A DNA stretch of 64,000 nt. Source: Acidobacteriota bacterium. Its GTDB lineage: Bacteria > Acidobacteriota > Blastocatellia > Chloracidobacteriales > JADJPF01. Positions within the stretch are counted from its first letter, which is position 1. The number at the start of each line of letters is the position of its first letter. This document shows positions 48,238-64,000 of this stretch, one piece after another. The position numbers were made by a program, and so were the translations under genes. Below the pieces are notes generated by a model. The model was not told the DNA's origin. It did no database searches and was given only the letters and a program-made list of their open reading frames with translations. Location: positions 62,001-126,000 of the forward strand of contig JACQZQ010000025.1 in assembly GCA_016213785.1 (NCBI GenBank). Reading direction: 5' to 3'.

Positions 48238-50658
48238 CTATTGCCTTAATTCAACAATTGTTGCACCTGCTCCACCCTCAGCAGAAGTAGCTTGATAAAA
48301 GGTAGCTACATGGGGATGAGACTTTAACATACTGCTAATTGCATTACGCAGCTTTCCTAGACCTGTTCCATGTACTATACGAATTCGGTCATAATTCTCT
48401 AAGAAAGCTCTATCTAGAAATTCATCTACAAGATCACAAGCAACGTCTGTAGTACAACCTATTACATTAAGCTCACTGTTAGTTATAGTTTCTGACTCTT
48501 CACGAGCTAAATTTACTCCTACAGGTAACTTATAAGCTGGTTTTTTCTTTATATTTTGACCTATTACTTTTAGAGTTGAAGGCGAAGCCTTAAAACGCAT
48601 TGCACCAACTCTAACAAAAATATCATGACCTTTAATCTCTTCTATAACGCCTTGTTGACCTAGTTCTGTTTCAACCCTTAAACCAACAGAAAAGCTTGGG
48701 GCAAAAATTGGCTCAGATTCTTTACTAGCTTGCATTTGAGCTTTATTTGACTGCTGATTGCTAGAAATTTTTGAAGTAGTTTTTACTTTTGAAACTTGGT
48801 TTTGAGCAATAGATTTTAACTGAAAAGCTCGCTTCTGTTGCTCTTTACTAAGTTTACTTGCTAAAGATTTATCCTCTAGTTGAGCAATAAATTGTTCTGA
48901 TTGTTTTGTAAAGTCTTTAATTATGCTGGCTAGTTGTTTTTCAAATTCTTTTTGGCGTGATTGCTCTTGAAGAGAAAATGCTTCTTCTAAATGTTGATAT
49001 TTCTCTGCTGTAGTTTGTCGCTCACTTTCAAGAGCAAGGTTTAAGTCTTGCCAGCGTTCTGCTTCGGTTTTAATAGTTCTAAGGAAGTTTGCTTGATGAA
49101 GGTCTCTTTGGTCAAGTCTTTTTCTTGCTAAAGCTAAAATTTCTTCCTGTAAACCTAACCGTTTGGCTATATCTATTCCACTAGAAGTTCCTGCAATATC
49201 AATAAGTAAGCGGTATGTTGGTTGTAGTGTAGTTTCATTAAACTCAACCGAAGCATTTAATACTCCTGGAGTTTCTGTAGCATAAAATTTAAGGGGATTA
49301 TAGTGAGTAGAAACTAGTACAATCGCCCCTTTTTGCTTAAAGTAGTCTACTATTGCAACACCAAGGGCTGCACCTTCTTCTGGGTCTGTTCCTGTACCAA
49401 CCTCATCAAGCATAACTAAAGCAGGCGCTTGAAAGCTTGAGGCCATTTGGCTAATATTTTTAATATGAGAGGAGAAAGTAGAAAGATTAGCAGCAATAGA
49501 TTGGTGATCGCCAATATCAGCCAAAACCTGCTTAAATATTGGGAGCCGAGCGCTATGAGCAGGAACATGCATTCCAGCCTGTGCCATTAAAGCTAGTAAC
49601 CCTACTGTTTTTAATACTATAGTTTTGCCACCAGCATTAGGCCCGCTTATTACCATTGCATTACGTTCTTTATCAAGAGCTAAAGAAATAGGAACTATTT
49701 TATTAGGTGTAGCTCGTAAATTATGCTCAAGAAGCGGATGACGAGCAGAAACTAGCTTTAGTTCTCCTGTTGTGTTCATTTCAGGACGAATACAATTATA
49801 ATCATCACCAAAGTTAGCTTTTGCCACTACAACATCTAATTCAGATAAAGCTTTAACTAGTGATCTCAATCCAGGAAGTTCGCTACGTAATTGTTGAGAA
49901 AGACTAAAAAGAATTTTTATTATCTCGGCTTCTTCTAATTCTTTTAGTCTTATCATTTCATTATTTTCTTCAATAGTTGAAATTGGTTCAACAAAGGCAG
50001 TTGCACCACTAGAAGAAGTTCCATGGACTACACCAGGAACACGGCTACGTGTATCGGTACGTATAGGAATAACAAAACGCCCATTACGAACAGTAACAAA
50101 ATCATCTCTTAGAGCATTTTCTTGTCCTGCTTGTTCTAAAACATTAGATAAATGTTTATAAATACGGTTTCTAAGAGCATTTATTTCCCTACGAAGCCGT
50201 TTAAGCTCAGGGCTTGCATCTTCATTTATTTCACCAGAAGGTAGTAAAGTATTACGTAGTCTTTGATGTAAAGCAGATAAATTAGGGATTTGATTAATAA
50301 TTACAGCTAGGCTAGGAAATTTTCCTTCAACCTCGCGAAATTGCATTCGCAAATTAGTTCCAATGCTAATAATGCTTTGAAGCTCTAACATTTCCTCAGC
50401 AGAAAGATAAGTATTATCTATAGCTAGACGTTCAAGAATAGGAGCAGGATCAACCATTTCAGAAATTCTAATGCGTCCAAATTCTCTTTGGTAATCGGAG
50501 CATTCTTTTACTTCTAAATGCTTGCGCTCAATTTTTATTAGATCTTCTTGTGGAGTAAGTTCTAAGAGATGTTTGAGTCCAATGGGTGTTTGAGCATAAG
50601 TTGAAAGTAAATTGCGTAACTCATTAAACTCTAACGGTTCAAAAGCTTGTTGATTCAT
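48238..50658 (-). CDS. mutS2: Endonuclease MutS2
   Basis: An 806-residue MutS-family ATPase lacking the mismatch-reading N-terminal domain, as in all MutS2. Core helices are followed by Walker A GPNAGGKT at 339-346 with K345, and Walker B LVMLDEVGTGTDPEEG. A coiled linker (about 500-640) and an SH3-like segment lead to the C-terminal Smr nuclease domain (about 725-806). There HGTGLGKLR is present, but the first Smr motif, usually L-D-x-R/H-G, reads LNVIGCTTDVA, so the nuclease may be changed. Known roles are suppression of homologous recombination and rescue of collided ribosomes. It heads the mutS2-dnaG-rpoD run. Confidence 0.95.
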   Translation of the reverse strand: MNQQAFEPLEFNELRNLLSTYAQTPIGLKHLLELTPQEDLIKIERKHLEVKECSDYQREFGRIRISEMVDPAPILERLAIDNTYLSAEEMLELQSIISIGTNLRMQFREVEGKFPSLAVIINQIPNLSALHQRLRNTLLPSGEINEDASPELKRLRREINALRNRIYKHLSNVLEQAGQENALRDDFVTVRNGRFVIPIRTDTRSRVPGVVHGTSSSGATAFVEPISTIEENNEMIRLKELEEAEIIKILFSLSQQLRSELPGLRSLVKALSELDVVVAKANFGDDYNCIRPEMNTTGELKLVSARHPLLEHNLRATPNKIVPISLALDKERNAMVISGPNAGGKTIVLKTVGLLALMAQAGMHVPAHSARLPIFKQVLADIGDHQSIAANLSTFSSHIKNISQMASSFQAPALVMLDEVGTGTDPEEGAALGVAIVDYFKQKGAIVLVSTHYNPLKFYATETPGVLNASVEFNETTLQPTYRLLIDIAGTSSGIDIAKRLGLQEEILALARKRLDQRDLHQANFLRTIKTEAERWQDLNLALESERQTTAEKYQHLEEAFSLQEQSRQKEFEKQLASIIKDFTKQSEQFIAQLEDKSLASKLSKEQQKRAFQLKSIAQNQVSKVKTTSKISSNQQSNKAQMQASKESEPIFAPSFSVGLRVETELGQQGVIEEIKGHDIFVRVGAMRFKASPSTLKVIGQNIKKKPAYKLPVGVNLAREESETITNSELNVIGCTTDVACDLVDEFLDRAFLENYDRIRIVHGTGLGKLRNAISSMLKSHPHVATFYQATSAEGGAGATIVELRQ

Positions 50659-50937
50659 AAAACTTAAAATATAACTTGCTTTCTAGGCAAAAAGAATAAA
50701 CTCTGATGATAGAAGTTTGATATTGATTTCGTCAAGAGCTTTACTGCACATATATGACAAAAACACATTGCAAAGCGTTACTTGGTCATCTAAAATTTTC
50801 TGTTTGTCGCCTAATCTATAAAGCTAAACATTTTTCTTAATTTTTACTTGATAATTAAAAATTTCTTATCTAGTAAAAACACGCAATTTCAATGGCGGCT
50901 TACGGCTCTAATAATAGTGGAGGTATTTTTTCTTAAG

Positions 50938-52950
50938 ATGTTAAGACTTTTAAATAAGAGTAAACGCTCACAAAAAGCTATTTGGCTAATGGCTTCAATA
51001 GTAGTAGTAGCAGGTATGGTCGTTTTCTATGCACCAATGAAAACCCCTTTAATTTCCTCTGATGGTAAAGCATTACCTGTTAGCGATAATGATCTAGTTG
51101 CTAAAGTAGACAAAGAAGAAATCACAGCAAGAGACTATATAACCGGCCTTGATAATATGATGCAAATGTATAAGCAATTTATGAATCAAGGTGGTAAGGA
51201 AATGGATCTAAACCAGGCTAGGAGCATGGGACTAGATAAAAACTTACTCCAAAGCCTAATTCGTAGAAAAATTGTTGAACTAGAAGTTAAACGTCTTAAC
51301 TTGGAAGCTTCTGATGAAGAAGTAAAAGCCCGTATTCGTGAACAGTTTACAGTTGATGGTAAATGGGTAGGTTATGATAAATATACTCGCTATATAGAAA
51401 GATCAGGCCAAACAGTTAATCAATTTGAAAAATCCTTACGTGAACAAATTGCAGATGAAAAATTACGTAGTCTTGTTACAAGCGCTATTCAAGTTTCACC
51501 TCAAGAAGTCCAAGAACAGTTTAATAAAGAAAATACTACCTTTAATTTAGTCTATACAGTAGTAGATTCTAGTAAACTAACTGAAAAGGTAACAGCTTCA
51601 GACGAAGAGCTAAAAACCTATTTTGAAGCTAATAAAAAAGATTTTCGAATTGATAAAACACAACGTAAAGCAGACTATATTTATATTAGCCAAGAGGCTG
51701 TCTCAAAAAATCTACAAGTCTCAGATGAAGAATTAAAAAAAGATTATGACCCTGAAAAATTTGTTTCTGAAGTTAAAGTCCAACAAATTTTGTTAAAAGT
51801 CTTAACTGAAAAAGATCGGCCTGAGGTTATGAAAAAAGCTACTGAGCTTGTAGGCCGTGCTAAAGGCGCTAATGGCGCACAAGCAGAAGATTTTGGTGCA
51901 CTTGCTAGAGGAAACTCTCAAGATACTGCAACAAAAGATAAGGATGGAGATATAGGGTTTGTTAAAAAAGACTCAGTAAAAGCAGGCAACTATTTACAAC
52001 GTGTTTTTACAATGCAAGTTAATGAAATTAGCGACCCTGTAGCCGATGGTAATAATATTTATATCCTAAAAGTTACTGATCGAAAAAATAAAACTTTTGA
52101 AGAAGCAAAAGAAGCTTTAGTAGCCTCTTCTCGTAATAGGCTTTCTTATAAAAAAGCTTCTGATCTTGCTGATGAAGCGGTAAAGCAATTAGCTGAAAAG
52201 AAAGATATTAAAGCAGTAGCAGAAGATATTGCTCAAAAACAAAGCTTAAAACTAGAAGAAACCTTAAAACAAACCCCTTTATTTGCTTCTGGTGATAATG
52301 TTCCAGGTATAGGTAGCAACCCTTCTTTTGAAGAAGCAGTTAATAACTTAAAAGCTATTGGTGATATAGGAGTTAAAACTGGTGTTAGAGGTGGTTTTGC
52401 TATCCCTAAACTAGCAGAAATTAAAGAACCCCACGATGCAACTTTAGAAGAAGTTAAAGATAAAGTTTTAGAAAAATATAAAAAAGATAAAGTTAAAGAT
52501 GTAGCCGCTCAACAAGCTAAAGCAATTCTTACAGACGCTAATAACACAGTTGATAATCTTAAGGCTGCTATAGAAAAAGCTGGTCTTAAGGCAGAAACCC
52601 GTGATGATTTTCGTGATGGTCAGTCGCTAGAAAACTTTAATGATATTACTAAAGTTATCCCTATAGCTATGAAACTTAAAGTAGGTGAAGTTGCTAAAGA
52701 ACCTATTTTTGGTAATGATAAATATTTGGTTTTTGGTATTACTAAACGTACTGATCCAGACACAGAAAAATATAATAAAGAATCTAATGCTGTTAAAGAA
52801 AGACTCTTAGAAGAGCGCCGCTCTATGACTTATGATGCTTATATAGACAATGTTAAAAAGAAAATGAAGGCTGAAGGAAAAATTATTGTTAAAAAAGAGG
52901 TTATTGAGAAGCTTTTCCAAGAAATGTCTGCTCCACCTCAAGGACAATAA
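50938..52950 (+). CDS. Membrane-anchored parvulin-type peptidyl-prolyl isomerase (PpiD/SurA-like)
   Basis: A 670-residue periplasmic foldase. An open frame extends 30 codons upstream to a TTG, but GGAGG at 50919-50923 and the position of the membrane helix favour ATG 50938; the 14-base spacing is longer than usual. One transmembrane helix (about 15-33) is followed by a SurA-N-like helical chaperone region (about 55-200) and a parvulin domain (about 274-382: VQQILLKVLTEKD, FGALARGNSQDTATKDKDGDIGF, VADGNNIYILKV). A second, weaker parvulin-like region lies near the C-terminus. It would assist folding of exported proteins. Transcription ends at the strong hairpin after its stop. Confidence 0.9.
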   Translation: MLRLLNKSKRSQKAIWLMASIVVVAGMVVFYAPMKTPLISSDGKALPVSDNDLVAKVDKEEITARDYITGLDNMMQMYKQFMNQGGKEMDLNQARSMGLDKNLLQSLIRRKIVELEVKRLNLEASDEEVKARIREQFTVDGKWVGYDKYTRYIERSGQTVNQFEKSLREQIADEKLRSLVTSAIQVSPQEVQEQFNKENTTFNLVYTVVDSSKLTEKVTASDEELKTYFEANKKDFRIDKTQRKADYIYISQEAVSKNLQVSDEELKKDYDPEKFVSEVKVQQILLKVLTEKDRPEVMKKATELVGRAKGANGAQAEDFGALARGNSQDTATKDKDGDIGFVKKDSVKAGNYLQRVFTMQVNEISDPVADGNNIYILKVTDRKNKTFEEAKEALVASSRNRLSYKKASDLADEAVKQLAEKKDIKAVAEDIAQKQSLKLEETLKQTPLFASGDNVPGIGSNPSFEEAVNNLKAIGDIGVKTGVRGGFAIPKLAEIKEPHDATLEEVKDKVLEKYKKDKVKDVAAQQAKAILTDANNTVDNLKAAIEKAGLKAETRDDFRDGQSLENFNDITKVIPIAMKLKVGEVAKEPIFGNDKYLVFGITKRTDPDTEKYNKESNAVKERLLEERRSMTYDAYIDNVKKKMKAEGKIIVKKEVIEKLFQEMSAPPQGQ

Positions 52951-52971
52951 ATTAAACCTAATGTAATTAAA

Positions 52972-53012
52972 AAAGTAGGGCAAGGCAGAAAAAGTCTTGC
53001 CCTACTTTTTTT
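52972..53012 (+). terminator. Strong Rho-independent terminator after the parvulin gene
   Basis: AAAGTAGGGCAAG at 52972-52984 pairs over 13 bases with 52996-53008 around an 11-base loop, followed by an uninterrupted T tract. It separates the foldase from the histidine/tryptophan gene run. Confidence 0.9.
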
Positions 53013-53053
53013 AATCTAAATTTTTATCAAAACTAACTATTAAGGAAAACCCT

Positions 53054-53848
53054 ATGCTAGCTAAACGAATCATCCCTTGTCTTGATGTTGATCGCGGTAG
53101 AGTAGTAAAAGGAATTAATTTTCTATCATTATCAGATGCAGGAGATCCAGTAACTCAAGCTTGTCGTTATGACAGTGAAGGAGCGGATGAGCTTATTTTC
53201 CTAGACATCACTGCATCATCAGATAATAGAAATATTATGTTAGAAATGGTTAGAAATGTGGCAGATAACGTTTTTATCCCTTTTACTGTTGGGGGAGGAA
53301 TTCGCAATATAGAAGATATTAGACAAATATTACTAGCTGGTGCTGATAAAATCTCTATTAATACTGCTGCAATAAATAATCCTAGTTTAATTTCTAAAGC
53401 TGCAAAGCGTTTTGGTAGCCAATGTATAGTTGTAGCAATTGATGCTAAAAAAACTATTAAAGATAAAGAAAATAAAGAAAATAAAGAAAATAAGTCATGT
53501 GATTTATGGGAAGTGTATACACATGGAGGGCGAAAACCAACTGCAATAGATGTTATTAGTTGGTCACAGGAGGCAGAGAAACTAGGGGCAGGTGAAATTT
53601 TACTTACTAGTATGGATAGAGACGGAACAAAAAATGGTTATGATATTGAGTTAGTTAAAAAAGTCTCATCTGCTGTAAAAATCCCTGTAATTGCTTCTGG
53701 GGGCGCAGGCTCACTAGAGCATCTTTACCAAGCCTTAGCTACTGGAGGAGCATCAGCAGTTTTAGCAGCTTCTATTTTTCACTTTGGAGAATTTACTATA
53801 ATGGAGGCAAAAAAATATTTGGCTGATAAAGGTGTTGAAGTGCGTTAG
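53054..53848 (+). CDS. hisF: Imidazole glycerol phosphate synthase cyclase subunit HisF
   Basis: A 264-residue TIM barrel that, with HisH, closes the imidazole ring of histidine and releases AICAR. Catalytic D11 (IIPCLD) and D130 (VVAIDAKK) are present, as are the phosphate loops TVGGGIRN and ASGGAGS. Immediately after beta-strand 5, residues 137-147 ([11 protein letters not shown]) are a lysine/glutamate/asparagine-rich insert coded by a 9-base tandem repeat, absent from usual HisF. HisH is not in the window. The next gene starts 10 bases past its stop. Confidence 0.95.
53465..53491 (+). repeat. 9-bp tandem repeat inside hisF
   Basis: AAAGAAAAT is repeated three times in phase, coding Lys-Glu-Asn three times. 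The repeat keeps the frame, so copy-number change would only alter loop length by three residues per unit. Confidence 0.9.
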
Positions 53849-53858
53849 AATAGACATT

Positions 53859-54392
53859 ATGTTTCAGCCTCAATTAAGAGTAAAAACTGAGTATCTCCCA
53901 ACTAGATGTGAGATTTGTCATCAAAAAGATAAATTTAATCCTGAAAAAAATCACTGCACTAGGTGTAATGATTTTTACCCTAAAGAAAAACTAACTCCTA
54001 TAGTTAGAAGAAATAGTAGAAGCCCAATATTTACGTTTATTGAGTTTCTAGGAAAACTAGCCATATTTTTATTTGCTGAGTTTGCTGTATTTATTTGTAC
54101 GCTTATTGGAATGCTTATAGCAATAGCGATTCTAATTGTTATATATGAAGTAATAATTTCGCTTATTGGGTTCAAAATAATCGATTACATATTCGGCTTA
54201 CTTTTTGGGTTTATAGTTTTAGGTTTTATATTGCTTGGCCTACTAGCAAGTGGAAAATTAGTCCAAGATATATTCTTAATCGATGATATTAATAATGCTG
54301 CTAATAATTTTCAAATCGATGAAAACCCAAGTCAAATCATAGGATTAGAAGAAGGCCCATATTGGTTAAATAATCGCAATCCTGAAGCTTAA
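53859..54392 (+). CDS. Membrane protein with N-terminal zinc ribbon, unknown function
   Basis: A 177-residue protein. An upstream TTG inside hisF would extend the frame by 9 codons; ATG 53859 starts just after the hisF stop and is preferred. Residues 1-45 carry C-x2-C twice (RCEICHQ and HCTRCND), a zinc ribbon. Two hydrophobic segments occur at about 65-100 and 110-140. The tail is acidic. The function is unknown to me. Placement between hisF and hisIE suggests co-expression rather than a biosynthetic role. Confidence 0.75.
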   Translation: MFQPQLRVKTEYLPTRCEICHQKDKFNPEKNHCTRCNDFYPKEKLTPIVRRNSRSPIFTFIEFLGKLAIFLFAEFAVFICTLIGMLIAIAILIVIYEVIISLIGFKIIDYIFGLLFGFIVLGFILLGLLASGKLVQDIFLIDDINNAANNFQIDENPSQIIGLEEGPYWLNNRNPEA

Positions 54393-54518
54393 AGATTTAT
54401 AGAATTTTAATTAAAGACCATCCTGCTTTGTTCTTAGTAATTAATTTCTGCTAAAATGTTTGACAAATATTCAAAATAAATTAAATCAAGTTTTATCTAG
54501 GAGAAGCTATTAAGTTTT

Positions 54519-55217
54519 ATGCCTGTAGACATATTTGTCCAAAATCTAAAGTTTGATGAACAGGGTTTGATCCCAGTAGTAGTACAAAATTGCAGCACAA
54601 ACGAGGTTTTAACTCTTGCCTATATGAATGTTGAAAGTCTTTCGCGAACACTTCAAACAGGGCAAACTTGGTTTTGGAGCCGCTCACGGAAAGAATTATG
54701 GCATAAGGGAGAGACTTCTGGTAACTTCCAGAATGTTGTTGATATTCGTATAGACTGTGATGGAGATGCGCTAGTAGTGCTTGTTGCTCCTGAAGGCCCT
54801 GCCTGTCATTTAGGCGAAAATACCTGCTTTCATCGCCAATTAAACCAACAAGAAACACAAAACCAACTTTTGCATAAAAGTGTTTCCCTAGTAAATCAAA
54901 GTTCGCTAGAATTGGGTATTCTCCTAGATGAACTCTATAGGCTAATTGAGGAAAGAAAGCTTAAACGTCCAGAAGGGTCTTATACTACCTATTTATTTAA
55001 TGCTGGACTAGATAAAATCTTAAAAAAAGTTGGGGAAGAATCAGCCGAAACCATTATTGCAGCTAAAAACCATTCTACTCAACAAATGGCCTCAGAAATC
55101 TCTGACCTACTCTATCATTTGCTAGTACTTATGAGTGAACGAGGAGTTCGACTAGAAGACATTTTTAATGAATTAAAACAACGTGCTGGGAAAGCTGCTG
55201 AACGGAAGTATTCATAA
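54519..55217 (+). CDS. hisIE: Bifunctional phosphoribosyl-AMP cyclohydrolase / phosphoribosyl-ATP pyrophosphatase HisIE
   Basis: A 232-residue fusion of two histidine-pathway steps. The HisI half (about 1-112) shows WFWSRSRKELWHKGETSGN, IDCDGDALVVLV and GPACHLGENTCF, which carry the Zn and Mg ligands. The HisE half (about 130-232) shows GSYTTYLFNAGLDKILKKVGEESAE, the acidic metal site of the pyrophosphatase. AGGAG lies 15 bases upstream of ATG, an unusually long spacing, but no better start exists. Its TAA shares its last base with the ATG of trpE, so translation is probably coupled. Confidence 0.95.
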   Translation: MPVDIFVQNLKFDEQGLIPVVVQNCSTNEVLTLAYMNVESLSRTLQTGQTWFWSRSRKELWHKGETSGNFQNVVDIRIDCDGDALVVLVAPEGPACHLGENTCFHRQLNQQETQNQLLHKSVSLVNQSSLELGILLDELYRLIEERKLKRPEGSYTTYLFNAGLDKILKKVGEESAETIIAAKNHSTQQMASEISDLLYHLLVLMSERGVRLEDIFNELKQRAGKAAERKYS

Positions 55218-56698
55218 TGTTTTTTACTCCAAAAAATTTTGAAGAATTCGCCCTAATGGCTAAACAAGGAAATGTTATTCCTGTAGCTAAAAGAGTCCCT
55301 GCTGATTTGCTTACTCCTGTAGCAGCTTACTTGCGTCTACAAGATAATAATCCTTACTCATTTCTTTTAGAATCAATTGAAGGCGGAGAACAAGTTGCTC
55401 GTTACTCATTTCTTGGGGTTAAACCTCATTTAATAATGAGAGTTCATGGCCGTACAGTAGAATCTATTTCCAATGGTCAAGTAGAGCGTTTGCCTGGAAC
55501 ACTCCTAGATGCACTGCGCTTATATCTTGGTCAATTAATTCCAGTTAAAGTATCTGACTTACCGCCATTTACAGGTGGAGGCGTAGGTTACTTAAACTAT
55601 GATATGGTACGCTGGTTTGAGCGTATCCCAAACAAAAACCCAGATGAGCTAAAAATTGATGATGCTTTAATTATGTTTTTCTCTTCAATTTTAGCTTTTG
55701 ATCATGTTAAACAACAACTCATTATTATTGTTAATACCTTTACTCAAGGTATAACCACAGGCTTAGAGTCAATATACCAAAGCGCATTACAAGAAATTTT
55801 TGAAATAGAAAAACTACTACAAAAACCCATAAGTATGGCTCCAAGCCAAAAACAACCTCAAGTATTACGTGTTAGATCTAATTTTACTAAAGACCAATTT
55901 GAGGCCGCAGTAGTTCAAGCTAAGGAATATATTAAAGCTGGCGATATATTCCAAGTTGTTTTATCTCAGCGATTTGAAGCAACCATAAGCAGTTCTGCAT
56001 TTCAAATTTACCGAGCATTACGTATGATAAACCCATCTCCCTATATGTTTTACTTAGGTATGGGAGATATGTCACTTGTTGGTGCATCTCCAGAAATGCT
56101 AGTAAGATCTAAGGATCGCAAGCTTGAGTATCGCCCTATTGCAGGAACACGCCCTAGAGGAGCAGATGATGTTGAAGATGCACTCTTAGGCGAGGAACTT
56201 CGTGCTGATGAAAAAGAAGTTGCTGAACATATTATGCTTGTTGACTTAGGGCGTAATGACTTAGGGCGAGTTTCTGAAATTGGTTCTGTAGAAGTTCTAG
56301 ACTTAATGTCTATTGAGCGCTATTCTCATGTTATGCATATGGTATCAAAATTACGTAGCAATTTACGAGTAGGTAATGACTGTTTTGATGCTTTAATGGC
56401 TTGTTTTCCTACAGGAACAGTTTCAGGAGCACCAAAAGTTCGTGCTCTAGAAATTATTGATGAATTAGAACCTAGCCGCCGAGGCCCATATGCAGGTGCA
56501 GTAATGTATCTAGATTATTCAGGGAATCTTGATTCTTGTATTGCTATTCGTACAATTTTAGTAAAAGATAACAAAGCTTATATTCAAGCTGGTGCTGGAA
56601 TTGTTGCTGATTCTGTTCCAGAAAAAGAATATATTGAAACTGTAAATAAAGCTCGTGCTTTACTTAAGGCTGTAGAGATTGCAGAAAAAGAACTGTAA
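55217..56698 (+). CDS. trpE: Anthranilate synthase component I TrpE
   Basis: A 493-residue chorismate-utilising enzyme that makes anthranilate using ammonia from TrpG. The N-terminal LLESIEGGEQVARYSFLG is the tryptophan feedback site (LLES motif). The catalytic half shows FQVVLSQRFE, SPYMFYL, GASPEMLVR, PIAGTRPRG, VDLGRNDLGRV, CFPTGTVSGAPK and IQAGAGIVADS, all canonical. The TAATG overlap with hisIE places it in the same unit. Its glutaminase partner trpG lies 5.2 kb downstream, after a kinase and a cyclophilin gene. It could alternatively serve as PabB, but feedback and sequence favour TrpE. Confidence 0.95.
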   Translation: MFFTPKNFEEFALMAKQGNVIPVAKRVPADLLTPVAAYLRLQDNNPYSFLLESIEGGEQVARYSFLGVKPHLIMRVHGRTVESISNGQVERLPGTLLDALRLYLGQLIPVKVSDLPPFTGGGVGYLNYDMVRWFERIPNKNPDELKIDDALIMFFSSILAFDHVKQQLIIIVNTFTQGITTGLESIYQSALQEIFEIEKLLQKPISMAPSQKQPQVLRVRSNFTKDQFEAAVVQAKEYIKAGDIFQVVLSQRFEATISSSAFQIYRALRMINPSPYMFYLGMGDMSLVGASPEMLVRSKDRKLEYRPIAGTRPRGADDVEDALLGEELRADEKEVAEHIMLVDLGRNDLGRVSEIGSVEVLDLMSIERYSHVMHMVSKLRSNLRVGNDCFDALMACFPTGTVSGAPKVRALEIIDELEPSRRGPYAGAVMYLDYSGNLDSCIAIRTILVKDNKAYIQAGAGIVADSVPEKEYIETVNKARALLKAVEIAEKEL

Positions 56699-56853
56699 TT
56701 AATAAAAATATTCCGATTAATTTTATCCTAAACTATATTTTAACAGCCTTCTAAGGCTTAAGAATAAAACAATAAAAATATTAAAAACAGCTTAAAGTGT
56801 AAATTTTAAGTAACATTAGTAGCTTTCACTTAAGAGAAGACTAAATATTTTTT

Positions 56854-59800
56854 ATGAAACGCTGCCCAAATTGCCACCAAGAATATAATGATGGGGTAAG
56901 TATGTGTCCTAGCGATGGACAGTCATTAATGCTTAACCCTGATCCTATGCTAGGCAAATTGCTTGAAGGGAAATATCGTCTAGAAAGCTGTATTGGCGTT
57001 GGTGGAATGGCAACAGTTTATTTAGCCACTAGAACACAAATTGGTGATAACGTTGCAGTTAAAATTCTTAATGAAGAGTCTTTGAAAAACCCTTTAGCCG
57101 TAGCTAGATTTCGTCGTGAAGCACAGGCCGCAGCACGTATTCATCATAACTCTGTAGTTACTATTCATGACATGGGAAATTTACCTGAAGGTAACACCTT
57201 CTTGGTAATGGAATATATCCGAGGTCATAGCCTAAGAGATGAATTAAAACAGAATAAAACCCTATCAGTTGCTAGAGCTATCTCTTTAATGAGTGCAGTT
57301 TGTAATGCAGTGCATGCTGCACATGATGCAGGAATTATTCACCGCGACCTTAAACCAGAAAACATAATGGTACAAAAGTTTTCTGATGATAGCGAGACTG
57401 TAAAAGTAGTAGATTTTGGTGTAGCAGAACTACGCGAACATGTAATTAGTGATGCTCTTACCAAACTAACCGAAGCAGGAATGATGGTAGGAACTCCTTA
57501 CTATATCTCTCCTGAACAATGCCGAGGAGAACCACTTGACCCTAGGGCAGATATTTACAGCCTAGGTATTATCCTATATGAACTACTTGCAGGCCATGTT
57601 CCTTTTCGTGGTAGAACACTTTCTGCTGTAATTATCCAACATGCAACAGAACCCCCTCCACTACTTCGCAAAATACGCCCAGATGTTAGCGAAGGGGTAG
57701 AGTCTGTAATTTTACGTGCACTAGCAAAAGATCGTAATCAGCGTCCAGTAACAAGCCGCGAAATGGGACAACTCTTAGAACAAGCCCTAGCTGGTATAAC
57801 ACTTTCTGAACCAGTAGATATTATCCTTGAAGCAATTCCCCATACTGAAAACCATAATACAGAACAAAAATTTTCTAGTCCTTCTAAAACAGGTGCAAAC
57901 ATCTCTGCACGTAAAAGCGGGTTACTTAATTATGATAGTTTAACCGGCTTACACTCTCATGCCTTCTTTATGCGCAACCTAGAAGAAAATACCCTTAGGT
58001 GTGCCCAGCTTAATGAGTCTCTTGGAGTAATAATTTTTGGTGTAGATAAATTTAAACGTATTAATAACACTTATGGCTATTTGCTAGGAGATTTACTACT
58101 TAGAGAAGTAGGGCATTTACTATGTCAAAACCTTCCAGAACAAATGGTTCTATGCCGTGCACCTGGTGATGGGTTTACAACTATGGCTGTTACTAAACAA
58201 AGCGAATTAGTAACACAATTAGCAACCAAATTAATCTTAAAAATAAAACAAACTCGTTTTCTCACTAAAGAATTACCCGAAGGACTAGAAATAACTTTAT
58301 CTGCTGGAGTAGCCTTTTATCCTGAAGACACCTTAGATCCAATAGATCTTTTTGAAATAGCAAAACATTCTTTAGCAACAGCTAAAACCATTGGGGCAGG
58401 ACAAGTTGCCCGTAAAGGCTCTAGTGGAGAGTTAAGCTATTTACCAAACCAAAATGAGCCTCAAATTCAATTTGAAAGCTTTGTTGGTCGCAGCATTGAA
58501 CTAGAAAAACTCCAACGTGGCTTTGACCAAAGCGTAGCAGGCCGAGGTCGTTTTGTACTTATTACAGGTGATGCAGGTCTTGGTAAAACCCGACTTGTAG
58601 AAGAGTTTCGCCGTCAATTAGCTGGTAAAGATGTTTTATTTCTTCAAAGCCGATTTTATGAGTCTGGTGGCTCTATCCCATATAAAGCTTTTTGTGATTC
58701 TTTACGAGGATCATTGCATTACTTAATGGAATATACTCCTGAAGACACCCAAATAGTATTTGGCTCAATGGCAGATAAAGTAATTACTGATTTTAGTACT
58801 AACGACCCTCTTTCTTTACTTCTAAATACAGATCCTAACTACAGTGCAAACGCGGAGCAAGAAAAATACCGTATTTTTGATTATTTAGTACGTATTTATT
58901 TAAATTTATCTAAGTTACGACCTATTATTTTATTTTTAGATGATCTGCAATGGGCTGATGAACTTACATTAGACTTTCTTGCTTACTTAATGAGAAATAC
59001 TACTGGAGAGCGTATATTTTTCCTTGCAACTTCTAGAGAATGGGAACTTACCAATGAAAGTAACCCTGTTCGAGGTTGGTTAAGGCAAATGAGCCGCTAT
59101 GGCAATCAAGAACAAATTAAACTTTCTCCTTTAACAGAAACAGAAATCGCTAAAGTGATGGAGTCAATGTTTGGCTCTATTGATATTTCCCAGGAAATGC
59201 TTAGTAGACTTTGCCAAGAAACTAAAGGCAATCCATTTTATTTTAATGAGATAATTCGTCTACTTTTAGAAGAAAAAGCAATTGAATGGTTTGATGGGTG
59301 TTGGCATTGTAAAGATGTAAATGAAATTCGGCTTCCAACCTCTGTAGTTGATTTAGTAGAAGCTCATTTAATTAAACTAGCTTCTCAAGACCTAGAGGTT
59401 TTTACTCAAGCAGCTATCTTAGGGGATGAGTTTACCTTTGAAACCCTCCAAGCTGTAACAGAAATAGATGAAGACCAACTTTTAGGAGTTATCGAAGCTG
59501 GGCTTAGAGAATATATTTTAAGAGAAGAACCTAGCACACGAGAAGACCGCTATTCTTTCTATCACAGCACTGTTAGAAAAGTACTTTATGAGCGCACTAG
59601 CCGCCGTCGCCGTAAACGCTTACATCAACAAATAGGCAATAAATTAGAGGGTCTTTATGCTGATCGTGCCAATAAAATCGCTGCTGAACTAGTCTATCAC
59701 TACTACAATGCAGAAGATTACGAGCATGCTTTAAGTTATGCAGTAGAAGCAGGCAATCTAGCCTGGCGAGCAATGGCATTTTCTGAGGCAGCAAAATATT

Positions 59801-61101
59801 ATGCTTGGGCAGAAAAATCTATTCAAAACCTTACAGCCTCACTTAAAGATGAAAGTCGTACAACTGGTAGTAACCAAGTCTTGCAATTGGCTGCCTGTGG
59901 GCTGCAAATCGAAGCCGACCGAATGGCCCAATATCATCTAAATTATGGTCAGCTTTTTATGCAGCTTGGAACTCATCAACGAGCAGAATCTCAACTTAGA
60001 CAAACCCTAGACCTTGCCCGACAAGTCCGTTCATTAAAGCTTGTTGGACGGGCTTTTACTGCATTAGGGGAACTCTATCGCCAATATGGTCAACTATCTC
60101 GTGGGCTAGAATATGGGGAGCAAGGTCTTGCAGTTCTTACTTCAATAGAAGACTCTGAATGGGAAGTCCAATCTCTAATGGTCATAGGCGCTTCACACGA
60201 AGGTTTAGGTCATTTTTCTCAAGCCTTAGAGCAGTATGAAGGCGCTTTAGTTCTTGCACGTAAAATTAAAGACCGTTTCCAAGAAAGTAATGCTTTATGG
60301 GGAATGGGTGTAATTTATTTTAGACTTGGACAATATGATAAAGCCCATGATTCTGCTAAACGCGCTCTAGAAATTAGTACAGTAATAGGAGATCGTTTAG
60401 GTCAAGAACGAAGTCATAATTTAATAGGCGCAATATTACTAGAGATTGGTCAATTCCAAGAAGCCCTTAAAAACTTTGAGAAAGCTCTAAAAATTGCTCG
60501 TGATATGGGATATAGACTACGTGAAACTTCTACACTCAATAATATTGGTGAGCATTACCGTAGACAAATGCGGCATCAAGAAGCTTATGAATATTATCAG
60601 CAAGCATTATCTATTACTAAAGAAACCTTGGATAAACCTACACAAGCATCAATTTTACTTAATATAGGGCTACTCTATCAAAGCCAAGGTAATCATGAGA
60701 CTGCTCTAGCAGAATTTATTAAAGCACAGAAAATTATTCAAGAACTTGGACTTAGACCAACGGAGCTTGAAACTTTAGTAGCAATAGGCGATTCTCTATC
60801 AGCGATAAATAATATTAAAGATGCACAAAGTTATTATCAATATGGCCTAGATTTATCTCGCCAATCAGGTAGCCCTGTTTGTGAATGGCGTGCTTTATAT
60901 GGCCTAGCACGTTGTGAAATAGCTAAAAACCATAAAAATACAGCACTAAAACTCTTAAAAAAGACGGTAGAAGTAATTGATTCAATGTCTTCAGAACTAG
61001 CTACTTATGCTAACCGAGTAAGTTTTCTTAAAAATAAACAAATTGTTTATAATGATTTAGCAGAACTAGCCCAAGAATTAAGTAAGGATGGAGTTCTATA
61101 G
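56854..61101 (+). CDS. Ser/Thr kinase fused to pseudo-GGDEF, AAA-type ATPase and TPR domains
   Basis: A 1415-residue cytoplasmic signalling protein. Domains in order: a zinc-ribbon-like start (C4, C7, C18; the fourth ligand position is Asp), a Ser/Thr kinase at about 41-312 (GVGGMA loop 48-53, K70, HRD 163-165, DFG 187-189), a GGDEF-like domain at about 355-515, an ATPase (Walker A TGDAGLGKT ending at T579, Walker B ILFLDDLQWAD near 690-700), and a C-terminal TPR array at about 960-1400. The GGDEF active site reads RAPGDGF with the first Gly and Glu lost, and IND/GH residues read INN/GY, so it probably cannot make cyclic-di-GMP and may sense nucleotide instead. The layout recalls PknK/AcoK-type kinases. 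It lies between trpE and the cyclophilin, 2 bases before the latter. Confidence 0.93.
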   Translation: MKRCPNCHQEYNDGVSMCPSDGQSLMLNPDPMLGKLLEGKYRLESCIGVGGMATVYLATRTQIGDNVAVKILNEESLKNPLAVARFRREAQAAARIHHNSVVTIHDMGNLPEGNTFLVMEYIRGHSLRDELKQNKTLSVARAISLMSAVCNAVHAAHDAGIIHRDLKPENIMVQKFSDDSETVKVVDFGVAELREHVISDALTKLTEAGMMVGTPYYISPEQCRGEPLDPRADIYSLGIILYELLAGHVPFRGRTLSAVIIQHATEPPPLLRKIRPDVSEGVESVILRALAKDRNQRPVTSREMGQLLEQALAGITLSEPVDIILEAIPHTENHNTEQKFSSPSKTGANISARKSGLLNYDSLTGLHSHAFFMRNLEENTLRCAQLNESLGVIIFGVDKFKRINNTYGYLLGDLLLREVGHLLCQNLPEQMVLCRAPGDGFTTMAVTKQSELVTQLATKLILKIKQTRFLTKELPEGLEITLSAGVAFYPEDTLDPIDLFEIAKHSLATAKTIGAGQVARKGSSGELSYLPNQNEPQIQFESFVGRSIELEKLQRGFDQSVAGRGRFVLITGDAGLGKTRLVEEFRRQLAGKDVLFLQSRFYESGGSIPYKAFCDSLRGSLHYLMEYTPEDTQIVFGSMADKVITDFSTNDPLSLLLNTDPNYSANAEQEKYRIFDYLVRIYLNLSKLRPIILFLDDLQWADELTLDFLAYLMRNTTGERIFFLATSREWELTNESNPVRGWLRQMSRYGNQEQIKLSPLTETEIAKVMESMFGSIDISQEMLSRLCQETKGNPFYFNEIIRLLLEEKAIEWFDGCWHCKDVNEIRLPTSVVDLVEAHLIKLASQDLEVFTQAAILGDEFTFETLQAVTEIDEDQLLGVIEAGLREYILREEPSTREDRYSFYHSTVRKVLYERTSRRRRKRLHQQIGNKLEGLYADRANKIAAELVYHYYNAEDYEHALSYAVEAGNLAWRAMAFSEAAKYYAWAEKSIQNLTASLKDESRTTGSNQVLQLAACGLQIEADRMAQYHLNYGQLFMQLGTHQRAESQLRQTLDLARQVRSLKLVGRAFTALGELYRQYGQLSRGLEYGEQGLAVLTSIEDSEWEVQSLMVIGASHEGLGHFSQALEQYEGALVLARKIKDRFQESNALWGMGVIYFRLGQYDKAHDSAKRALEISTVIGDRLGQERSHNLIGAILLEIGQFQEALKNFEKALKIARDMGYRLRETSTLNNIGEHYRRQMRHQEAYEYYQQALSITKETLDKPTQASILLNIGLLYQSQGNHETALAEFIKAQKIIQELGLRPTELETLVAIGDSLSAINNIKDAQSYYQYGLDLSRQSGSPVCEWRALYGLARCEIAKNHKNTALKLLKKTVEVIDSMSSELATYANRVSFLKNKQIVYNDLAELAQELSKDGVL

Positions 61102-61103
61102 TT

Positions 61104-61868
61104 ATGCTAAAAAATAAATCAAAATATATTTATAAAATATGTTTCTCGTTATTAATAATCACCTTACTATTTTCTAATATAGCTCTAGCACAAAAGCGTA
61201 AGCCTAAAGCAAATACATCTTCTGAAAAAAATGTACCTGCTAAAACCCCTGAACCTGTTAAGACTCCTGAACCTATTAAACCACCTGAGCCTGAAATTAT
61301 TAAACCACCAGAAACTTCCTTGTCTATTGAAGAGATGGAAAAGCTTGTAGCAGTGATAGAAACAGCAGCAGGTGATATTACCCTAGAATTTTATCCGAAA
61401 GCAGCACCAAACCATGTAAGACAATTTATTTGGCTAGCTCGCTCAGGTTATTTTGAAGGAATGTCTATAAGTAGAGTATTGCCTAAGTTTATTATTCAAA
61501 GCGGAAATCCAGGTTCTTGGGAGGATACAAACCCTAATAAGAAAAAGCGTTTTGAAATACCTAAATTAAAAGCTGAATATGACGCAAATATTAAGCATGT
61601 TCGCGGAGTAATTTCCCTAGCCCGGCCAAATGGCGATCCTGATGGCGGGACAACGCATTTCTTTATTTGTGCACAAAAAGCACCTTCATTAGATGGACAA
61701 TACAGTGTTTTTGGAAGTGTAATAAAAGGGCTAGAAATAGTTGATCAATTAGCATCACTACCACTAATTGAAAATACAGATAAACCTGTTGATAGAGTTG
61801 AAGTTAGACATATAAAAATTCAAGAAAAAGCTATTGAAAAACCTATAGAAAACGAGCCTAAACAATGA
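61104..61868 (+). CDS. Exported cyclophilin-type peptidyl-prolyl isomerase
   Basis: A 254-residue protein. Residues 1-30 are a signal peptide ending in ALAQ; residues 32-72 are a proline-rich linker with TPEP/PPEP repeats. A cyclophilin domain (about 83-240) keeps the catalytic Arg in ISRVLPKFIIQSGNP, plus HVRGVISLAR, THFFICAQ and LDGQYSVFG; the usual Gln of SQFFI is His. It would act on proline peptide bonds outside the cytoplasm. It starts 2 bases after the kinase stop and overlaps trpG by four bases (ATGA), so all three are coupled in translation. Confidence 0.92.
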   Translation: MLKNKSKYIYKICFSLLIITLLFSNIALAQKRKPKANTSSEKNVPAKTPEPVKTPEPIKPPEPEIIKPPETSLSIEEMEKLVAVIETAAGDITLEFYPKAAPNHVRQFIWLARSGYFEGMSISRVLPKFIIQSGNPGSWEDTNPNKKKRFEIPKLKAEYDANIKHVRGVISLARPNGDPDGGTTHFFICAQKAPSLDGQYSVFGSVIKGLEIVDQLASLPLIENTDKPVDRVEVRHIKIQEKAIEKPIENEPKQ

Positions 61869-62434
61869 TCCTAGTAATTGATAATTATGATTCATTTACT
61901 TACAACATAGTACAATACTTAGGTGAATATAATCCTAACATTTATGTTTATCGCAATGATCAAATTACTATAGATCAGATTAAACAACTTAATCCTAAGC
62001 ATATTGTAATTTCCCCTGGCCCAGGCCGCCCAGAAGCCGCAGGAATAACAACTACAGTAATCAAAGAATTTGCAGGTAAAATTCCCATTTTAGGAATCTG
62101 CTTAGGCCATCAAGCAATAGGTTTAGTTTTTGGCGGTAATGTAATTTCAGCACCTTACCTTATGCATGGTAAAACTAGCGAAATCTGCCATGATGGGTTA
62201 ACAATTTTTCGTGGTCTAGAGTATCGTTTTTCTGCTACTCGCTATCATTCCCTAATAGTAGACCGTAATACTATTCCAGCAGATTTAGAGGTTTCCGCTA
62301 CAACTCCTGATGGCCTAGTAATGGGTTTACGCCATCGTCGTTATGTATGTGAAGGAGTTCAATTTCATCCTGAATCAATTATGACTAATAATGGAAAACA
62401 ACTTCTAAAAAATTTTCTCTCACTTTCAATTTAG
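61865..62434 (+). CDS. trpG: Anthranilate synthase glutaminase component TrpG (PabA-like)
   Basis: A 189-residue class I glutamine amidotransferase. The nucleophile is C79 in GICLGHQAIG; H168 and E170 in VQFHPES complete the triad. PGPGRPEAAG is the typical substrate loop. It supplies ammonia to TrpE and may also serve PabB in folate synthesis. It starts within the cyclophilin's stop region. Its separation from trpE by two signalling/folding genes is unusual. The transcript may end in the following non-coding region, though no hairpin terminator was found there. Confidence 0.93.
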   Translation: MILVIDNYDSFTYNIVQYLGEYNPNIYVYRNDQITIDQIKQLNPKHIVISPGPGRPEAAGITTTVIKEFAGKIPILGICLGHQAIGLVFGGNVISAPYLMHGKTSEICHDGLTIFRGLEYRFSATRYHSLIVDRNTIPADLEVSATTPDGLVMGLRHRRYVCEGVQFHPESIMTNNGKQLLKNFLSLSI

Positions 62435-62799
62435 ATTTTTTCTGGTCTACATTTATTTTTTAGATATTTTATCAGACATAGTTTTATGCCAACTTTGGCA
62501 GATTTGTCATAAATGGCAATTTGTCGCCTGCCAAAAATGGCAGACTTTTATTAATAAATACTTAGAATTCTAATAATGGCAGATGTTTTAACTAGTTTAT
62601 TTTCAATAGGTAGAAAACTCTGTATTGATTTTACCCTATCTAAGGAATAAAAATTGCCTTTGCCCAAAAACACTTTAGCTAAAAAGAATATCTAGCTTTC
62701 CCAATAATCATAGTTATAATACTGAACTAAGTTTGATATTCTAAGTTTAATTCTTAAATTCTATTTATCTAATCTTTGTTTAGAAAGTTAGCAAAATTT
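62435..62799. promoter_or_regulatory. Non-coding region with repeated TGGCA half-sites before the prepilin gene
   Basis: This gap of about 365 bases holds no gene. TGGCA occurs on the plus strand at 62496, 62514, 62538 and 62577, and its complement TGCCA at 62487 and 62529, i.e. six half-sites in 95 bases. Two pairs form inverted repeats: TGCCAACTTTGGCA at 62487-62500 and TGCCAAAAATGGCA at 62529-62542. They lie 220-310 bases upstream of the prepilin start, where an activator or repressor could bind. TGGCAATTTGTCGCC at 62514 looks like a sigma-54 site but the GG-to-GC spacing is one base short. The remainder is plain AT-rich sequence. Confidence 0.5.
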
Positions 62800-63363
62800 A
62801 TGAAAAACCATAAAGGATATTCCTTCCTAGAATTAGTCATTGTTCTAACAATAGTTGGTCTTGGGTTAATTATAATAGGTGTAAATATTGGTCGTGCTAC
62901 AATTGCGGCTAAAACTGAAAATGTTCTTATTGATATGGCTATTGCAGTTTCTACGGCTCAAAATGAAGCTAGACGTGGTGCTACAGATATAGGGAAACGA
63001 ACTTTTGATTTACAAAAAGCTGATATTAAGCCTCATTCGGGTGTAGTAGTTACAAGCCTTCCACCTCTTGACCTAAAAAGCCGTTGCTCAAGCTGTCCTA
63101 ATGCAGAGGCGGTTTTATGTGTTTCTGAACAAAGCTTTTGTCATTCAACTAAACCAACTTTTACTTTTAATAAATTTTCTGGAGAACTTACCCAAGCATA
63201 TGCAATTTTTGTTTTAAGCCAAAACCGCAACCTTGTCTTATTAATCACTCAAAAAGGTGAACTTTCAATAGCAGAGCTTATTAATGGACAGTGGCGTTCT
63301 CGCACAGACTTACAAAATCTCTTACCTCGCCAACAAAAAACACCCCTTATAGATAAAGGCTAA
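62800..63363 (+). CDS. Type IV prepilin-like / pseudopilin protein
   Basis: A 187-residue protein. I choose ATG 62800 over the TTG at 62776 because it gives the short leader MKNHKG typical of type IV pilins; cleavage falls after G6 and the mature protein starts Y-S-F-L-E with Glu at position 5. The hydrophobic helix LVIVLTIVGLGLIIIGVNI follows. The globular head has four cysteines (CSSCPNAEAVLCV, then FCH), likely two disulfides. It resembles GspH/FimT minor pseudopilins. It would be inserted in the membrane and assembled into a pilus or secretion pseudopilus. No pilus machinery gene lies in the window. Confidence 0.88.
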   Translation: MKNHKGYSFLELVIVLTIVGLGLIIIGVNIGRATIAAKTENVLIDMAIAVSTAQNEARRGATDIGKRTFDLQKADIKPHSGVVVTSLPPLDLKSRCSSCPNAEAVLCVSEQSFCHSTKPTFTFNKFSGELTQAYAIFVLSQNRNLVLLITQKGELSIAELINGQWRSRTDLQNLLPRQQKTPLIDKG

Positions 63364-63372
63364 GTAGGAGTG

Positions 63373-64000
63373 TTAATCTTCTATATCTTTATCTTGAAAG
63401 TCTTTTTGGATTTCAATCACTTTATCTTTAGAGTTCATTAGTGATATAACACAATCTTTATCTAATTTAGTTTTAGAAAGTCTTTCTAGCATAGCAAAAG
63501 CATCTTCATTTGACCAAGGAGTTTTATAAGGTCTTTTACTAGTTAAAGCATCAAAAATATCTGCTACTGCAATAATTCTTGCTTCTAAAGGGATTTCTCC
63601 ATTTTTTAGACCATAAGGATACCCATTTCCATCCATAGTCTCATGGTGACAAACAGCAATATTACGTAAAATATCTACTCCTTCAAAAGATTCTAAACTA
63701 AAATTTTCAATCATTAAGTTAATTATTGCTTTTCCTTTAAGTGTATGAGTTTTCATTACTTCAAACTCACTCTCTGTAAGTTTACCTGGTTTTAGTAAAA
63801 CACTATCAGGAATACCTATTTTTCCCACATCATGCATTGGGGAATACATATAAATCCATTCAATAAAGTCATCTTTTAAGTTATATATACCTGCTTTTGC
63901 TAGATCTTGAGCTATTAAGCGAGAAAACCTAGCCATTCTCTCTAAGTGCCCTCCTGTTTCAGGATCACGATAATGCACCATATCATTGGCTGTTTTAAGT
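63373..64000 (-). CDS. HD-GYP domain protein (partial, 5' end outside window)
   Basis: The frame runs from its stop at 63373 to the window edge, and the codons before the internal ATG at 63981 (LKTAND) continue the family pattern, so that ATG is not the true start. The visible 208 residues are an HD-GYP phosphodiesterase: YRDPETGGHLERM, MHDVGKIGIPD (HD pair), and HHETMDGNGYPYGL (HHE and GYP). All metal ligands look intact, so it should hydrolyse cyclic-di-GMP. Similar proteins (RpfG type) have an N-terminal receiver. It is convergent with the prepilin gene, 9 bases apart. Confidence 0.9.
   Translation of the reverse strand, partial: LKTANDMVHYRDPETGGHLERMARFSRLIAQDLAKAGIYNLKDDFIEWIYMYSPMHDVGKIGIPDSVLLKPGKLTESEFEVMKTHTLKGKAIINLMIENFSLESFEGVDILRNIAVCHHETMDGNGYPYGLKNGEIPLEARIIAVADIFDALTSKRPYKTPWSNEDAFAMLERLSKTKLDKDCVISLMNSKDKVIEIQKDFQDKDIED

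Follow-up and report, generated by a model that had tools for sequence, protein, structure and literature searches.

A probable regulatory pseudo-cyclase between the kinase and ATPase of a fused signalling protein in one order of Acidobacteriota

What is a GGDEF domain for when it sits inside a protein kinase and lacks residues expected of an enzyme that makes cyclic di-GMP (c-di-GMP)? The question is raised by an open reading frame (ORF) in a 64,000-nucleotide stretch of an Acidobacteriota genome (assembly GCA_016213785.1, contig JACQZQ010000025.1, positions 62,001 to 126,000), hereafter the window, from whose first letter all coordinates are counted. The ORF runs on the + strand from an ATG at 56854 to a stop at 61101, exactly as a preliminary description of this DNA had placed it, and encodes 1415 amino acids in the order kinase, degenerate GGDEF, AAA_16 ATPase and tetratricopeptide repeats (TPRs). 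We consider it probable that this is a kinase/STAND signalling protein in which a pseudo-cyclase with the GGDEF fold serves as a non-catalytic regulatory module.

The kinase domain spans residues 41–300 (56974–57753; Pfam Pkinase, 171 bits). Its catalytic core had been called intact, and GxGG, VAVK, HRDLKPEN, DFG and SPE are indeed all present; the kinase fold, catalytic Lys, HRD and DFG make it a Hanks-type Ser/Thr protein kinase. The GGDEF-fold domain follows at residues 359–515 (57928–58398), with a Pfam score of 91 bits against a cut-off of 23.8 for PF00990. Next comes an AAA_16/STAND-like ATPase core at residues 543–720 (58480–59013; Pfam AAA_16, 98 bits) with intact Walker A (GDAGLGKTR) and Walker B (ILFLDDLQWAD) motifs, and then a TPR region at residues 986–1405 (59809–61068; boundaries approximate), in which Pfam finds TPR_12 in five stretches (145 bits) and other TPR families. 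Scores this far above cut-off for all four domains rule out a chance ORF.

An ungapped phmmer alignment of the GGDEF domain to PleD supplied the residue map, and residue roles in the PleD domain were taken from the accessible portions of PMC7288161 and PMC12943098, the former describing D327, N335 and D344 as essential for activity. Residues 435–441 read R-A-P-G-D-G-F instead of carrying GG(D/E)EF, so that PGDGF replaces the signature at residues 437–441 (58162–58176): G368 has become Pro437, the motif acid E370 is retained as Asp439, and the following Glu is Gly440. IND is changed to INN (residues 403–405) and GH to GY (408–409). The preliminary description had read all these motif changes correctly and had called the domain degenerate, which stands insofar as it concerns catalysis, but it overlooked the strongest lesion, the replacement of the metal ligand D327 by Gly396 (58039–58041), as well as the loss of the phosphate contact R446, now Ala515. 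In a structure alignment with 15 other GGDEF domains, all 15 have Asp at position 327 and only the window domain has Gly. The residue table and structure alignment place K442 at Lys511 (Lys511 to Ala515, 58384–58398), leaving the K442 and R446 pair broken. The guanine contacts N335 and D344 are retained as Asn404 and Asp413 (58063–58092), and K332 as Lys401. Just upstream of the signature, the RxxD of an I-site is absent and PEQM stands in its place, which makes c-di-GMP sensing through an I-site unlikely.

An AlphaFold2 model of the GGDEF domain by itself has a mean predicted local distance difference test score (pLDDT) of 94. Foldseek matches it to diguanylate cyclases in the PDB (E 5e-16), and VIA-align superposes it on 5llw, an Idiomarina diguanylate cyclase, with Z 24.7 and a root-mean-square deviation of 1.6 over 164 residues, and on PleD 2wb4 with Z 24.0. 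The model thus indicates a preserved fold, and the residue map a chemistry that is not preserved. Judged by its residues, the domain is almost certainly no diguanylate cyclase, and we infer that it makes no c-di-GMP. Variants with RGDEF, SGDEF or AGDEF can be active in other proteins, and one fused relative, introduced below, retains D327; yet D327, the motif Glu and R446 are all lost together in the window protein, and we regard the continued production of c-di-GMP or another cyclic nucleotide, through an altered metal geometry, as very improbable.

Relatives show how far this degeneration extends. A protein search of 58 genomes, the window genome (G000) included, and a GGDEF+ATPase profile (A1) together identified 20 proteins with the fused architecture, spread over 13 of the order's 14 genomes; the one exception, G012, is in 1090 contigs. 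At E ≤ 1e-45 the profile matched 13 of 162 genomes of the class, every one inside the order, and the class's other 148 genomes gave no match to the fused architecture at that threshold, at which a strongly diverged fusion might escape notice. A draw of 396 genomes of the phylum gave 13 matches, seven in the order and six outside the class. In the latter the GGDEF-ATPase ORF encodes no kinase, and a kinase ORF is likewise absent from the DNA fetched around it; the two checked against Pfam carry TPR or HEAT repeats. Among the 80 loci listed from a wider contig scan, in which two kinase motifs filled most of the list, all have a kinase ORF and none has kinase and GGDEF in one ORF; these are mostly unrelated kinases, so the scan says little on other phyla. 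Viral contigs scanned with the window's own domain yielded no relative.

Counts below refer to the 20 fused proteins; the residue table holds 19 fused rows, the G008 protein being counted apart from it. Clade A carries PGDGF in G000, G001 and G002, EGDNF in G003, GGSEF in G004 and ATDEF in G005. Clade B/C carries GGDEF in six proteins (G006–G011), RGDEF in three, GGNEF in G013, GSDEF in G004, ASDEF in G005 and QGDEF in G003. The outlier X (X_G002c111, L042:4736-8137, genome G002) has SGDEF and is the least degenerate of the fused relatives, being the only one with Asp at the D327 site; the other 19 have Gly, Ser or Arg there, including all six proteins with an exact GGDEF. In the kinase-less GGDEF-AAA relatives Asp occupies this site in six of six cases, and among tabulated free-standing GGDEF domains in seven of eight, the exception being L008, itself degenerate. 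Since D327 is lost even where GGDEF is exact, the degeneration predates the altered motif and extends beyond it. PGDGF, which three genomes from two genera have in common, is no recent lesion. On these sequences, catalytic loss appears to be a family trait, with PGDGF a later layer on one branch. The preliminary description had asked whether the altered motif is conserved, which it is across those three genomes; it had also held that homologues with an intact motif, set beside recent decay here, would count against a repurposed domain. Such homologues exist, but D327 is gone from them as well, and the decay dates from further back. With rank 157 of 161, the column at position 446 belongs to the most variable, partly through gaps, and its assignment in A_G002 and the C group, where the region is gapped, is uncertain. 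L008 (G000 C8:11653-12114) is an unrelated TPR-like protein whose degenerate PGEGF resembles PGDGF and which has Lys at the D327 site.

The neighbouring domains have fared differently by their motifs. Every fused protein that includes the relevant sequence has an unbroken set of kinase Lys, Glu, HRD, DFG and SPE; L010 and L043 are without the kinase half. Walker A and the acidic Walker B pair (DD, or ED in clade B) are preserved in all fused proteins, suggesting that the flanking enzymes are kept and the GGDEF enzyme is not. N-terminal of the kinase lies a zinc-ribbon-like CPNC...CPSDG stretch (56863–56919), which clade A shares with numerous further kinases from the class and which is missing from the B and C copies.

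Trees are consistent with a single family. The GGDEF domains of the fused proteins form one clade (Shimodaira–Hasegawa-like approximate likelihood ratio test, SH-aLRT, 97), as do the 17 fused rows of a kinase+ATPase tree (bootstrap 91, SH-aLRT 95). That tree omits A_G001 and B_G002c416, whose kinase half is cut by contig ends, and does not recover clade A as a single group; the ATPase tree supports clade A at SH-aLRT 87 and B/C at 97. A near-identical G008 copy was omitted from all three trees. The placement of X, kA_G000c56 and kA_G002c233 is unsure because of their long branches.

Is the domain then a functionless leftover, a spacer in decay? Between G000 and its sister species G001, the ratio of nonsynonymous to synonymous substitution rates (dN/dS) stands at 0.164 in the GGDEF domain, as against 0.054 in the ATPase and 0.046 in the TPRs, the kinase lying off the G001 contig. 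Expressed as the ratio of proportions of differing sites (pN/pS), the GGDEF value is 0.249 (bootstrap 0.168–0.361). In five of six ortholog pairs the GGDEF domain has the highest pN/pS among the folded domains, the exception being G007/G006, where the TPRs slightly exceed it; short linkers are higher still in some pairs. Five intact GGDEF domains from the same two genomes, used as controls, have pN of 0.035–0.077 and pN/pS of 0.069–0.190, and the window domain's pN of 0.126 lies above all five; the unrelated degenerate L008 has a pN/pS of 0.226. Such figures are what decay would predict, but the ratio stays well below 1, and the order as a whole preserves reading frame, length and fold, with PGDGF spanning two genera. 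The GGDEF domain is under purifying selection and evolves faster than most neighbouring domains; as the intervals overlap for some controls, faster but still constrained is the limit of this claim. We therefore find functionless decay improbable, and its recent, pseudogene-like form in the window genome is ruled out by purifying selection together with the shared PGDGF of G000, G001 and G002.

A constrained domain without catalysis might instead be a sensor of guanine nucleotides that binds but does not turn over GTP, GDP or (p)ppGpp and in this way switches the kinase or ATPase. There is precedent: in Caulobacter CC3396 and Shewanella PdeB, as far as the available text of PMC9061725 and PMC7288161 describes them, GTP acts on an EAL domain through a non-catalytic GGDEF. 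Like those domains, the window domain is a GGDEF fold in a larger regulatory protein with no (here predicted) cyclase activity; CC3396 and PdeB bind GTP and control an EAL phosphodiesterase, whereas the partners in the window protein are a kinase and an ATPase. PleD structures with ppGpp and pppGpp, going by entry titles (9g85, 9g86), are also compatible with a sensor, as is the retention of the N335, D344, K332 and K442 equivalents. Across the family, D344 is invariant in all 19 tabulated fused rows, and N335, D370 and K442 each persist in 17 of them. However, of the GTP-binding residues of the CC3396/PdeB type, the window protein keeps N335, D344 and K442 and has lost the metal ligand D327 and the phosphate contact R446, whereas PdeB, in the same partial accounts, retains its set. 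K442 is gone from the clade-A copies in G004 and G005, and N335 also from the G005 copy; conservation of the pocket therefore does not extend across clade A. Taken together, these observations leave a nucleotide sensor as the main competing explanation, possible but clearly the less probable one.

We prefer the reading in which the pseudo-cyclase is kept as a regulatory or assembly module, and in which it probably signals to the kinase which nucleotide or TPR-ligand state the ATPase-TPR half is in. The TPRs would bind a partner, the ATPase would then switch, the GGDEF module would rearrange or dimerise, and the kinase would phosphorylate its targets. With its guanine contacts retained, the pseudo-cyclase may still bind a ligand, which this model does not require. 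Three points weigh against it. The structural model spans the GGDEF domain alone, so the coupling between domains is wholly conjectural; residual or altered chemistry is conceivable because Asp439 and the equivalents of N335, D344 and K442 are kept; and X_G002c111, with D327 and SGDEF, may still be active.

The fusion of kinase and GGDEF had been described as uncommon, which holds for this exact domain order and not in general. A Clostridium thermocellum protein of 1826 amino acids (gi|23020879), printed in 2005 (PMC1262709, available in part), likewise has a Ser/Thr kinase, TPRs and a GGDEF domain in one polypeptide; compared by description only, its GGDEF is C-terminal, and that of the window protein lies between kinase and ATPase. 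The best NCBIfam match is TIGR03903 (TOMM system kinase/cyclase fusion protein; 365.5 bits in three stretches), which by its name also joins a cyclase-type domain to a kinase. That score is under the family cut-off of 705.75 bits, and the window domain is a GGDEF. A YcaO maturation gene is a criterion of TOMM systems, and YcaO (PF02624) has no match in the window genome (96% complete); with the sub-cut-off score, this rules out a TOMM system. Closer to home, kinase-AAA_16-TPR proteins (G000 C56, G005 C159) have those domains in identical order, without a GGDEF between kinase and ATPase, and GGDEF-AAA_16-TPR/HEAT proteins from other classes of the phylum (G185, G372) place the GGDEF directly N-terminal of AAA_16 but are without the kinase.

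A kinase-TPR-GGDEF protein (PMC1262709) and inactive GGDEF domains as GTP-binding regulators (PMC9061725) are thus already on record, in the portions of those papers available. We found no paper on the kinase-GGDEF-AAA_16-TPR order in the open-access PubMed Central (PMC) literature, and as far as that literature shows, this arrangement is new, as is the family-wide D327 loss. One order of bacteria holds a natural series in which a cyclase domain embedded in a kinase protein loses its catalysis (GGDEF, RGDEF, GSDEF, GGSEF, PGDGF), nearly all members of which already lack the metal Asp. This opens to experiment the idea that a GGDEF fold may control a protein kinase in place of a phosphodiesterase. 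The series also warns against taking an intact GGDEF string as proof of an active cyclase, as six of the 20 relatives pass the motif check and lack D327.

The kinase gene lies among genes, all on the + strand, which we take by eye from their sequences to be a trpE-like anthranilate synthase component I upstream (55217–56698; kept in G002 and G003) and, downstream, a cyclophilin-type peptidyl-prolyl isomerase (61104–61868) and a trpG-like glutamine amidotransferase (61865–62434), both kept in G001, G002 and G003. The isomerase gene starts 2 bp past the kinase stop and overlaps the trpG-like gene. The placing of kinase and cyclophilin genes between trpE and trpG (55217–62434) is kept in the family: hisIE-trpE-kinase-isomerase-trpG is common to the window, G002 and G003, with hisF too in G002, and G001 has the 3′ half before its contig ends. 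No such neighbours occur within the fetched stretches around the clade-A copies of G004 and G005 or the B/C copies. We infer that the cluster is co-transcribed. No terminator was found between trpE and the kinase gene, where the one promoter-like site is on the opposite strand and at chance level, and an Rfam scan of 50000–64000 gave no regulatory RNA match. Guanine contacts are kept in the four clade-A copies of this his-trp-cluster family, and the two clade-A copies outside it have lost pocket residues. A pseudo-cyclase that senses guanine nucleotides or alarmones and couples amino-acid supply to the kinase would fit this pattern; we think it unlikely, the link between cluster and pocket resting on one phylogenetic split.

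The window genome has 12 PF00990 matches, canonical GGDEF domains among them, and seven PilZ matches, so parts for c-di-GMP signalling exist without the kinase–GGDEF protein. It has no EAL match, and HD-GYP proteins may accordingly be its c-di-GMP phosphodiesterases. An HD-GYP-like domain, recognised by eye, lies close to the kinase gene at the window end (63373–63999). Two free-standing GGDEF domains of the genome, L003 (G000 C91:153148-153630; GHLIGS) and L005 (G000 C52:49415-49888; GHLCGS), have Ser at the PleD D344 site, the change described, in the accessible part of PMC7288161, for hybrid promiscuous (Hypr) GGDEF enzymes that make cyclic GMP-AMP (cGAMP), and are candidate Hypr enzymes.

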